Below are positions 7,297-41,086 of a stretch of DNA of 46,769 bases, piece after piece. The DNA is from Thermoleophilaceae bacterium (GTDB lineage Bacteria; Actinomycetota; Thermoleophilia; Solirubrobacterales; Thermoleophilaceae): NCBI GenBank assembly GCA_040901445.1, contig JBBDYQ010000006.1, forward strand, positions 1-46,769, in the 5' to 3' direction. The notes below the pieces were generated by a model. It was not told the origin of the DNA. It saw only the letters and a program-made list of their open reading frames with translations, and searched no databases. Within the stretch, counting starts at the first letter, position 1. Each line of letters opens with the position of its first letter. A program made the position numbers and the translations under genes.

Positions 7297-7340
7297 GGGG
7301 TCAGGTCTGACCCCTACGCAATGCAAGACCTGACCCCCTA
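7297..7340. repeat. Family A palindromic repeat (copy A1)
   Basis: Left arm TAGGGGGTCAGGTC and right arm GACCTGACCCCCTA are perfect 14-bp complements ending at 7340. The left half also folds on itself (GGGGTCA-GGTC-TGACCCC). The outer edge supplies the TAG stop of the rhodanese gene on the minus strand (7340-7338). It sits between the codirectional rhodanese and decarboxylase genes. Confidence 0.85.
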
Positions 7341-17154: not shown

Positions 17155-18500
17155 TCGACGGCGTCGCGGACCTCAAGCTCCAGCATCTGGTCGAGCTGTC
17201 CAAGCTGGGCGACGGCGCCTGCGATCTCGAGCGCGAGATCGAGGGCTGGCTGGCCGAGCACGACGTGGTCTTCGACGGCCACACGATCCCGTTCGTGCTC
17301 ATGCCGCACTTCATCTCGGGCGCCCAGCTGAAGGAGGTGCGCCGCGCGGTGGGCTGCCTGTCGGCCGTGCTCGACCGCCTCTGCGACGCCTATCCCGAGG
17401 ACGCCCGCCTGCGCGAGGAGCTGGCCGTGCCCGAGCGCGAGGACGAGCTCATCCGCATGGACGCTGGCTACCCGCGCCCGCTGCGCATCTGCCGGCTCGA
17501 CGCGTTCCTGTCGGGCGGCGACGTGAAGTTCCTCGAGTTCAACGCCGACTCGCCCGCCGGCATCGGCTACACCGACATCCTGTTCGACGGATTGGCGCGG
17601 GCCATCGACCTGCCGCGCGTGCGCGGCGAGTTCGAGACCTCCTACACGCCGATGCTGCCGGTGCTCATCGCCACGCTGCTCGACGCCTACAAGCACTTCC
17701 GCGGCGGCACGGACCTTCCGGAGCGGCCGCGGCTGGCTCTGGTGGACGTGGCCGGCTCGCCCAGCGTGCCGGAGTTCCGCATCATCTGCGCCGCCGCCGG
17801 CGACGCCGGTGTCGAGGCCCTGCACTGCACGCTCGACGACCTCTCCTACGACGGGTCGGTGCTGCGTGCCGGCGGCGAGCCGGTGCAGCTCGTGTACCGC
17901 CGCGCCCTGCTCGAGGACGTGGGGGACGGCCCGCTGCTGGACGCCGCCCGCGACCGCCGCGCCTGCCTGGTCAACCCGTTCCGCGCGCGGGTGGCCAACA
18001 ACAAGAAGCTCTTCGCCCTGCTCGAGGATCCCCGTTATGCCGATCGCGACGAGCTGGAGGTCATCCGCCGCACGATCCCCTGGACGCGCGTGCTGCGGGA
18101 CGGCCGCGCCACCTGGGGCGACTGGGTGGTGGACCTGCTCGCCTTTGCCTCCGACAACCGCGAGCGGCTGGTGCTCAAGCCGGCGTCCGACTACGGCGGG
18201 CACGGCGTGGCGCTGGGTGTGGAGACCGGGCAGGGCGAGTGGGACGCTCTCATCGAGGAGCACGCGCCGCGCGCGGACTTCGTGGTGCAGGAGTACGTCC
18301 CGGTCCCGCAGGAGATGTTCCCGACAGTCGAGGACGGTCACATCCAGATGCAGCTCAAGCACTTCAACATCAACCCGTTCGGGATCGGAGGCCGCTACGC
18401 CGGCATGATCACCCGCATCTCCGACCGCGCGGTGATCAACGTGTCGGCGGGCGGCGGCCTGCTGCCGAGCGTGCTGGGAAAGGGGCGCAGCCATGCTTAG
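17151..18500 (+). CDS. Circularly permuted ATP-grasp ligase-like protein
   Basis: A protein of 449 residues. Motifs match the glutathionylspermidine-synthase-like/circularly permuted ATP-grasp group: VKFLEFNADSPAGIGYTD, the nucleotide-binding lysine strand RLVLKPASDYGGHGVALG, FVVQEYVPVPQEMFP, and the metal-binding end LKHFNINPFGIGGRYAG. Such enzymes join a carboxylate to an amine or thiol through an acyl-phosphate. No amidase domain is fused and the substrate is unknown. It sits between the Lrp regulator (4-nt overlap) and a ferritin-like protein (8-nt overlap), next to tyrosine catabolism genes. A small-molecule or peptide ligation pathway using an aromatic compound is a possibility only. 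Confidence 0.8.
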   Translation: MIDGVADLKLQHLVELSKLGDGACDLEREIEGWLAEHDVVFDGHTIPFVLMPHFISGAQLKEVRRAVGCLSAVLDRLCDAYPEDARLREELAVPEREDELIRMDAGYPRPLRICRLDAFLSGGDVKFLEFNADSPAGIGYTDILFDGLARAIDLPRVRGEFETSYTPMLPVLIATLLDAYKHFRGGTDLPERPRLALVDVAGSPSVPEFRIICAAAGDAGVEALHCTLDDLSYDGSVLRAGGEPVQLVYRRALLEDVGDGPLLDAARDRRACLVNPFRARVANNKKLFALLEDPRYADRDELEVIRRTIPWTRVLRDGRATWGDWVVDLLAFASDNRERLVLKPASDYGGHGVALGVETGQGEWDALIEEHAPRADFVVQEYVPVPQEMFPTVEDGHIQMQLKHFNINPFGIGGRYAGMITRISDRAVINVSAGGGLLPSVLGKGRSHA

Positions 18501-19668
18501 GCGCGGCTACGACGTCGACGAGAACGCCATCCGCTTCTCGAACTACTTCCATGTGCTGCGCGAGCTCGTCCACCTGTCGTCCGGCTGGCTGGCGCTGGAG
18601 CCGTCGTTCGAGCGCAAGTATGCGCTGGGCGACCATCTCCACGACGACGCGCGCGCGGTCACGAAGGTCAAGCGGCGGCTGTACGAGCTGCGCCACCCGA
18701 GCGACTACCCGGGCGCGCCGGGTCCCGAGCTCGCGCAGCTGCTCGACGAGCTCGCGGCGGCGGACTCGCCGGAGGCCTACCGCGAGCTGGCCTACGGCGT
18801 GGTCAAGCCCACACTGGCCGCCGCGATGCGCGTGCACCTGGCCGAGCTCGACCCGGTGACTGACGAGCCGTCGCTGCGCCTGCTCGAGCAGGTGGCCGCG
18901 CGGCAGGAGCGCCACAGCCAACAGCGGGGTCAGGTCTTGCATTCACACACCGGAGGTGTCGGAATGCAAGACCTGACCCTGGATCTGGGCGCGCTCCCGA
19001 TCAAGCTCCGCGGCGAGCCGCGGCCGCTGCGCATCCTGCCGCCGCTCCACGACCCCGCTCGCGACGAGTTCGTGGAGGTGAACGAGCACGGCGACCCGTA
19101 CCTCACCGACGACCTGTACGTGAACGGCGACGAGAACCACGTGCCCACCGACCCCGACGAGCAGCGCCACTTCTTCCACGGGCTGATGGACGCGGAGCTG
19201 TGCGCGGCCGAGCTGATGGCGCGCAACTCGCACGAGCATCCGGAGATGCCGTGGGACTTCCACGTGGACATGGCCCGCCAGACCTGGGACGAGCTGCGCC
19301 ACGCGCGCGTGCACGAGATCCTCATGCGAACCGAGCTGGGCTGCCGCTGGGGCGACTACCCGGTGGGCTTCTCCTACTTCCGCTCCATCTACGCCCATGA
19401 CCTGCTTGGCCGGCTGGTGCTCTTCAACGGAACCAGCGAGCAGAAGGCCATGTGGCGCCACTCGCACCGCCGCAAGGTGCTGGTGGAGCTGGGGCAGGAG
19501 AGCGTGGCGAAGGTCTTCGACTACCTGCTGGCGGACGAGGTGCCGCACGTGCACAACGGCGTGCGCTGGGGCACCCACCTGCTCGGCGGCGACGAGAGCG
19601 CCTACCGAGAGAAGGTGCGCGAGCTGCGCCAGGGGCTCGACCACACGGGCGCGCCGGCCTCCGCCTAA
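18493..19668 (+). CDS. Ferritin-like di-iron protein with in-frame palindromic insert
   Basis: A protein of 391 residues. The C-terminal half has a ferritin-like metal set: ELCAAELMARNSHEH, then TWDELRHARVHEI (E..H), then YLLADEVPHVHNG (DExxH), which resembles DUF455-like proteins. The N-terminal 145 residues are helical (HVLRELVHLSSGWLALEP, GDHLHDDARAVTKVKRRL). Between the halves lies palindrome A2, read as RGQVLHSHTGGVGMQDLT; its length of 54 nt (18 codons) preserves the frame. The ATG at 18964 inside the repeat could also start the C-terminal domain separately. It likely acts with the upstream ATP-grasp protein, for example as an oxidase or oxygenase, but no reaction is known. Confidence 0.75.
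   Translation: MLRRGYDVDENAIRFSNYFHVLRELVHLSSGWLALEPSFERKYALGDHLHDDARAVTKVKRRLYELRHPSDYPGAPGPELAQLLDELAAADSPEAYRELAYGVVKPTLAAAMRVHLAELDPVTDEPSLRLLEQVAARQERHSQQRGQVLHSHTGGVGMQDLTLDLGALPIKLRGEPRPLRILPPLHDPARDEFVEVNEHGDPYLTDDLYVNGDENHVPTDPDEQRHFFHGLMDAELCAAELMARNSHEHPEMPWDFHVDMARQTWDELRHARVHEILMRTELGCRWGDYPVGFSYFRSIYAHDLLGRLVLFNGTSEQKAMWRHSHRRKVLVELGQESVAKVFDYLLADEVPHVHNGVRWGTHLLGGDESAYREKVRELRQGLDHTGAPASA
18926..18980. repeat. Family A palindromic repeat inside a coding sequence (copy A2)
   Basis: Left arm GGGGTCAGGTCTTGCATTC (18926-18944) and right arm GAATGCAAGACCTGACCCT (18962-18980) are complementary except for the last base. An inner ACACC/GGTGT stem extends the hairpin. It is open in the reading frame of the ferritin-like gene. 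Confidence 0.9.
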
Positions 19669-39625: not shown

Positions 39626-41086
39626 TTGGCCAGGGGCCGCGTGCCGCGGGCCGCCGCGGCCGTCGCCGGCCTGGCGGTCGCAGCATGGGTGTCCACCCGC
39701 TGGGTCTCCCTGTCCCCGGACGCCCGCTACTCGCTCGCCTGGGGCGCCGAGCTCATCCGCGGCGACGCCCCGCAGGTGGACGCGCCGGAGGTGTCCACGC
39801 CGCACCCGCTCCCGATAGTGGCCGGCGGGCTGGTGTCGCTGCTCGGCGCGCGGGCGGCCGCCGACGTGTACGCCTTCGGTGCGGTGCTCGCGTTCGCCCT
39901 GCTCGTGTACGCCGGCTTCCGGCTCGGCCGGGCGCTCGGGGGCACGGTGGCGGGCGTGGTGGCGGCCGCACTTGTGGCCACCCGCGAGCGCGTCGACTTC
40001 TTCGCCTCGCGCGCGTTCATCGACATCCCGTTCGCCGCGCTGGTGCTGCTGGCGGCGGCGCTGGCGGCGGAGGGCCCCCGCCGCAACGCCACACCCGCGC
40101 TGGGGCTGCTCGCGCTCGCCGGCCTGCTGCGCCCGGAGGCGTGGGGGCTCGCCGCGCTGTACGGCGGCTGGGTGATCGTCGACCAGGCCCGCCCCAGCCG
40201 GGGTCAGGTCTTGCAGAACGGCAGAACTCGGGCCGAAGGCCCCTGCTGGTCTGCAAGACCTGACCCCGGCCCCTGCGGCATTGCAAGACCTGACCCCGGC
40301 CCGGCACCTGCGGCCACGCTCGCCCTCGTTGCCGCCGCGCCCGCCATCTGGATCCTCTTCGACCTCGCGCTCACAGGCGACCCCTTCCACTCCCTCCACG
40401 GCACCCAGGAGAACGCGCTGCTGCTCGAGCGCGACACCGGCCTCGACGACCTGGGGCCCAGCCTGCGCGCGGGAATCGAGGACCTCGCCGGCCTGGCGCC
40501 CGCCGCGGCGGGCGCGGCGTTCGGGGCCTGGGGGCTGGTGCGCTTCCGGCGCGAGCGCCCGGCGTTCGCGGTCGTCATGGGGCTGGTGGGTGCGGGGATC
40601 GCCGCCTTCGCCCTGCTGGCCGTGGCGGACCTGCCGCTCAACGACCGCTACCTCGTGGTGCCCGCGCTGGCGCTGCTCGCGCTCGCCGCGGCCGCGGTGC
40701 CACGGGCCACGCGCAGCGTCGTGGCGGCGGCCGCCGCCACGCTGGCGCTCGTGCCGGCCGCGCTGGCGCTGCCTGACGACCTCGACGCGGCGGGCGACGG
40801 GCTCGAGGGCGCACACTCCAAGGCGCGCGCGGACGAGGACCTCGAGCGGCTGCTCTCGCGCGACGGCGTCCGCGCCGCGATCGATCGCTGCCAGAGCCTG
40901 TCGGCCGCGGCGTCCGGGCGTCCGGCGGTGGCGGCCCTGCTGGGGCGCGACCCCGCCACGGTGGCCATCTCGCTCAGCCCGGTGCCGCCGCCGGGCAGCG
41001 CCACCCTGAGCACGAGCGAGACCGTGCCGCCCGGCACCCCGCGGAGCGTGCGCGTGCGTGCCTGGACCTTCGTCAACCGCTGTTGA
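39626..41086 (+). CDS. Polytopic membrane protein, GT39-like, with in-frame palindromic insert
   Basis: A protein of 486 residues. There are about ten hydrophobic helices. The first extracytoplasmic loop (SPDARYSLAWGAELIRGDAP, then VSTPHPLPIV) resembles the catalytic-loop end of mannosyltransferase-like (GT39/GT83/ArnT) proteins, though the diagnostic DE pair is not clear. The C-terminal part is soluble. Between helices, residues near 190-225 are encoded by palindrome A3 and read RGQVLQNGRTRAEG... and ARPDP twice, interrupting an otherwise hydrophobic region. The start is uncertain: TTG 39626, or GTG 39641. It probably transfers a lipid-linked sugar at the membrane, but this is a family-level guess. 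Confidence 0.65.
   Translation: MARGRVPRAAAAVAGLAVAAWVSTRWVSLSPDARYSLAWGAELIRGDAPQVDAPEVSTPHPLPIVAGGLVSLLGARAAADVYAFGAVLAFALLVYAGFRLGRALGGTVAGVVAAALVATRERVDFFASRAFIDIPFAALVLLAAALAAEGPRRNATPALGLLALAGLLRPEAWGLAALYGGWVIVDQARPSRGQVLQNGRTRAEGPCWSARPDPGPCGIARPDPGPAPAATLALVAAAPAIWILFDLALTGDPFHSLHGTQENALLLERDTGLDDLGPSLRAGIEDLAGLAPAAAGAAFGAWGLVRFRRERPAFAVVMGLVGAGIAAFALLAVADLPLNDRYLVVPALALLALAAAAVPRATRSVVAAAAATLALVPAALALPDDLDAAGDGLEGAHSKARADEDLERLLSRDGVRAAIDRCQSLSAAASGRPAVAALLGRDPATVAISLSPVPPPGSATLSTSETVPPGTPRSVRVRAWTFVNRC
40197..40300. repeat. Family A palindromic repeat inside a coding sequence (copy A3 plus half copy)
   Basis: The complete part has 20-bp arms at 40197-40216 and 40251-40270 (GGGGTCAGGTCTTGCAG and its complement plus GCC/GGC edges). 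A further right half (GCATTGCAAGACCTGACCCC) is at 40278-40297. All of it is open in the frame of the membrane-protein gene. Confidence 0.9.

Follow-up and report, generated by a model that had tools for sequence, protein, structure and literature searches.

A probable TIRYT-type palindromic element lying in frame within a membrane-protein gene of a Thermoleophilaceae bacterium

A 99-nt segment in a polytopic membrane-protein gene of a Thermoleophilaceae bacterium belongs to a repeat family of the same genome, is absent from homologues, leaves the reading frame intact, and has arms identical to those around Y1_Tnp transposase genes in other carriers of the family. We consider it very probable that the segment originated as a non-autonomous palindromic element of the TIRYT type, linked to Y1/HUH transposases, which inserted into the gene, survived there, and had its right half tandemly duplicated afterwards. 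The gene lies in a window of 46,769 nucleotides (the whole stretch of DNA analysed); copies across the genome were examined as individually retrieved loci.

Neither Pfam nor NCBIfam gives a match to the host ORF, but 36 of the 61 genomes searched (own genome counted) contain homologues. Alignment of homologues, together with hydropathy, was used to place the insert. The extra segment, RGQVLQNGRTRAEGPCWSARPDPGPCGIARPDP, comprises residues 192–224 (numbered from 39626) and is encoded by the region of three in-frame arms. It is absent in all 25 aligned homologues, whose flanks align on either side. Compared with the closest homologue (G013, 53% identical), which reads RRS directly followed by GPAP, the present protein has 33 residues between RPS and GPAP, and both DNA and protein comparison give a net gain of 99 nt, or 33 residues. 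The hydrophilic insert occupies a linker that varies in length across the family and is flanked by hydrophobic segments. An earlier note on this DNA had described an insert of different composition between hydrophobic helices and proposed looking for a lack of residues ~190–225 in orthologues; both the description and the comparison hold. The frame remains open up to the conserved C-terminus, thus nothing suggests a pseudogene, and nothing indicates that the insert benefits the protein.

The exact 16-mer TGCAAGACCTGACCCC occurs at 40200-40215 (minus strand) and at 40252-40267 and 40282-40297 (plus strand). Arm matches with ≤3 mismatches number 9 in the window, compared to 0.57 expected from shuffles (shuffle maximum, 4). 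The first two arms pair as a 28-nt inverted repeat (93% identity, 18-nt gap), and the element strand folds into an uninterrupted 21-bp stem (z = −9.3 as DNA; z = −7.6 for the hairpin as RNA). All three arms share the reading frame of the single ORF, confirming the earlier description of a palindrome plus a lone third right arm in frame. The features of the locus are as follows.

39626-41086, plus strand: host gene, intact ORF for a polytopic membrane protein, 486 aa (481 aa from GTG at 39641)
40199-40297, plus strand: net insert relative to homologues, 99 nt (33 residues); placement at 40200-40298 is equally possible
40200-40215, minus strand: left arm GGGGTCAGGTCTTGCA, read (R)GQVLQ
40216-40251, plus strand: inner stem and loop, from sequence and fold; the inner sequence CAGAACTCGnGCCGAAGGCnCCTG is common with long-form copies at L050, L065 and L071
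40252-40267, plus strand: right arm TGCAAGACCTGACCCC, read ARPDP
40238-40267, plus strand: first 30-nt unit of a tandem pair, from repeat comparison
40268-40297, plus strand: second 30-nt unit, 87% identical to the first, holding the lone third arm (40282-40297)

The own genome (3.54 Mb) contains 55 arm sites at ≤2 mismatches, mostly arranged as palindromic pairs; its copies comprise paired hairpins of 41–74 bp, the 98-bp copy in the membrane-protein gene, and some lone arms. The exact 15-nt arm was found in none of 60 relatives, and, counting the own genome, 4 of the class's 199 genomes have the exact arm pair. Among the matches listed, exact pairs come, by record name, from Rokuibacteriota, Elusimicrobia, Omnitrophota, Nitrospirae, Nitrospinota, Chlorobiaceae, several proteobacterial groups, and Actinobacteria. 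A text search of the literature with the arm sequence returned unrelated papers only. Other copies in the window include the following.

18926-18980, plus strand: copy A2, in frame in a DUF455 gene (18493-19668), at a linker position where relatives have a shorter unrelated stretch
7297-7337, no strand assigned: intergenic copy with one altered arm, from the arm scan and gene positions

The association with transposases comes from the other carriers, where the exact 16-nt arm forms the terminal inverted repeats of 10 of the 70 Y1_Tnp loci retrieved and GGGGTCAGGTC borders 14 of the 70. ORFs enclosed by arms at these loci encode ~280–320 aa, and the one arm-bordered protein analysed for domains contains Y1_Tnp and an HTH. 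Y1_Tnp is present in 36 of 41 arm carriers versus 64 of the 199 class members; this excess is suggestive only, as the taxonomic make-up of the two sets is not the same. The own genome yielded no PF01797 (Y1_Tnp) match at E ≤ 0.01, in a 25-contig assembly from which a gene could be missing.

These features resemble those of the TIRYT/TIRtron repeats, whose terminal motif is GGGGWSAS (Di Nocera et al. 2013, PMC3733652). The arm GGGGTCAGGTCTTGCA contains this motif, its start, GGGGTCAG, being the part that fits; in other carriers these arms flank Y1_Tnp genes that encode a C-terminal HTH, and the copy number is moderate, with pairs and clusters. In contrast to TIRtrons, the own genome has no detected Y1_Tnp gene, and the published families are from other species; the likeness drawn here is one of motif and description. 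REPtrons can vanish from genomes that still bear the repeats (PMC3733652). The TnpA_Y1 subclass 2.1 of PMC6006769 is probably the group of TIRYT-like transposases matched here.

On this reading the element would be a miniature one, made up of a pair of terminal inverted repeats of the kind linked to TIRYT-type Y1/HUH tyrosine transposases, and one copy would have entered the membrane-protein gene, presumably as a single-stranded hairpin. Such single-strand movement is suggested by analogy with IS200/IS605 and TnpA_REP, and the mobiliser was presumably once present in the own genome and has since been lost. The insert would have been tolerated because it is 99 nt net, stop-free, and located in a variable-length linker between hydrophobic segments. 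The insertion itself is reconstructed from sequence comparison, and the duplication of the right half that would have produced the third arm probably came later.

An improved gene call was used to place the pairs, giving 22 evaluable pairs in the own genome and 117 elsewhere. Credible interior insertions account for 2 of the 22, both within the window, and none of the 117 was confirmed inside a gene. As the own-genome DNA is ~91% coding, the family avoids gene interiors, like REPs. The copies in L117, L141 and L056 were rejected as interior cases, as the ORFs surrounding them have no Pfam match and look antisense, and near-matches without a partner arm in L070 and L073 were discarded as likely native coincidences. 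At copy A2, the shorter linker of relatives contains a conserved (I/V)AEL, and the native stretch was seemingly replaced, not simply interrupted; part of the native linker appears to have been lost.

Could the palindromes be adapted to in-frame entry, giving a harmless or useful peptide in the manner of Rickettsia palindromic elements? The earlier note had argued for frame selection from two observations that stand: translation of both genes gives the same left-arm RGQVL in copy A2 and in the membrane protein, and one of the right-arm frames holds a TGA that both genes avoid. The left arm is also read (R/W)GQVL in the gene-end copies at L060 and L066, as in both interior copies. However, the open frame in which the right arm is read differs between the interior cases (MQDLTL in A2, ARPDP in the membrane protein), other gene-overlapping copies are read in other frames (e.g. 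GVRSCN, GSGLA), and interior copies are as rare as described above. The chance of missing the TGA frame twice is ~4/9, and avoiding it is a requirement for gene survival. With these small numbers frame selection has no support, and we regard an adapted coding frame as very improbable.

If the palindrome were instead a signal encoded by the host (a terminator, say, or a site for protein binding) that overlaps the gene by chance, this would account for the strong RNA hairpin and for copies that are mostly intergenic, many of them close to stop codons. Against it, inspection of copy flanks by eye revealed no T-run 3′ of the hairpins, relatives lack copies that are nonetheless scattered across phyla, and identical arms border transposase genes. 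We therefore consider such a signal, as opposed to a mobile element, an extremely improbable explanation. As to the third arm, the two 30-nt units (40238-40267 and 40268-40297) are abutting, equal in length and 87% identical, and a 30-bp tandem duplication that copied the right half is the best explanation for it. The earlier note had suggested repeated insertion or a nested or recombined event; its added half copy is confirmed, and duplication fits the origin better. A separate second insertion of a half element adjoining the first would agree with the lone half-copies elsewhere in the own genome, and the inner bases of the third arm (GCAT before TGCAAG) are nearer to those of other copies than to those of the middle arm. 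However, the abutting units share GGCCCCTGC outside the arm, as slippage would yield, and since all 33 residues are extra relative to G013, no native sequence gave way to the third arm. A second insertion is thus rather unlikely. Ten groups from other carriers likewise have extra arms next to a pair.

Survival of a palindromic mobile repeat in frame inside a gene is an already known kind of event, represented by the Rickettsia palindromic elements (RPEs) and by intragenic REPs. RPEs (Ogata et al., reviewed in PMC10969869) are palindromes lying in frame within protein-coding genes; like the insert described here, they add a few dozen residues. RPEs are ~150 bp long and nearly half of the members of three families lie inside genes, whereas the present family measures 41–98 bp, avoids gene interiors, and has no conserved peptide frame. 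The frequent in-frame insertion and conserved peptide of RPEs are not seen, given 2 credible cases among 22 pairs and differing right-arm frames. In-frame intragenic cases are also on record for REPs (PMC3116915, PMC3733652). GTAG REPs and REPINs with RAYT transposases are similarly short hairpins, mainly extragenic and linked to Y1 tyrosine transposases (PMC3116915, PMC3733652), but here the arms, which are long and almost perfect terminal repeats, are found at the borders of the transposase gene as well, and the sequences of all copies have no shared GTAG or GTGG foot. Nor do the copy flanks, inspected by eye, show the T-run of an intrinsic terminator. The membrane-protein gene thus adds one well-supported case of a mobile palindrome lengthening a protein, in a genome without a recognisable transposase for it, and arms that recur unchanged in many phyla and next to Y1 transposase genes provide a direct test system for repeat movement.

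The least expected result, and the one most deserving of follow-up, is a set of half-copies in other genes that leave gene length unchanged.

L051:2221-3465 (G000:C1:180083-181324), minus strand: hemL of the own genome, with a lone half-element (24/25 nt)
L068:2772-3518 (G000:C25, near 556955): methyltransferase gene of the own genome, with a half-copy
L335:996-2123: FAD oxidoreductase gene of another carrier (G088, the same genome as G258), with a lone arm
L333:506-2926: glycosyltransferase gene of G088, with a length-neutral lone arm

The hemL codons GGG TCA GGT CTT GCA ACC CAG CAG match the element arm and part of the inner stem at 24 of 25 nt. The encoded residues are GSGLATQQ, against mostly GSGLATQG in GC-rich codons in relatives; the alignment has no gap, and one residue differs from the commonest sequence of relatives. 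In the methyltransferase gene, 27 nt are identical to one half of the copy at L063, and the oxidoreductase gene contains a half-copy-like tract of ~38 nt; the former aligns without gaps to relatives and the latter to its closest relatives. Based on codon usage, ≤0.0003 exact arms in frame are expected per genome, and with amino acids held fixed, 0 and 1 per million draws match the observed identities of the half-copies. The glycosyltransferase case may be a chance match, its homologues natively having LLQD(L/F)T.

Nearly all residues are kept in hemL, and several are changed in the methyltransferase and the oxidoreductase. Judged from these alignments, the half-copies are best fitted by overwriting of existing sequence rather than insertion; for the methyltransferase and oxidoreductase, an insertion together with a deletion that exactly offset it may instead have occurred. 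Spread by equal-length overwriting (as a patch left by short conversion or by single-strand annealing), in addition to insertion, is a tentative proposal to which we give somewhat less than an even chance. Gene conversion of REP-like repeats is an old proposal (Higgins et al. 1988, as cited in PMC8266576). Since it appears only as an old hypothesis in the searchable papers, we treat length-neutral overwriting by half-copies as possibly unreported, not as new. If general, it would supply sequence evidence for that proposal, and half-copies of this kind in conserved genes would make transposition versus conversion of REP-like repeats directly testable.

Several minor observations concern the wider family. 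A separate subfamily of 66 bp in the same genome (L057:622-687, L075:3001-3066 and L076:3001-3066) has the arm GGGGTCAGGTCATGC(C/G) and a common inner sequence. Copies at L066:3001-3052 and L060:3001-3073 lie at the 3′ ends of a CofGH-like gene and an MFS transporter gene, respectively, whose proteins gain (W)GQVLQ... tails. The right arm may also provide a start codon to downstream genes at L055:3001-3017 and L071:3052-3068 (ATGCAAGACC... and GTGCAAGACC...).
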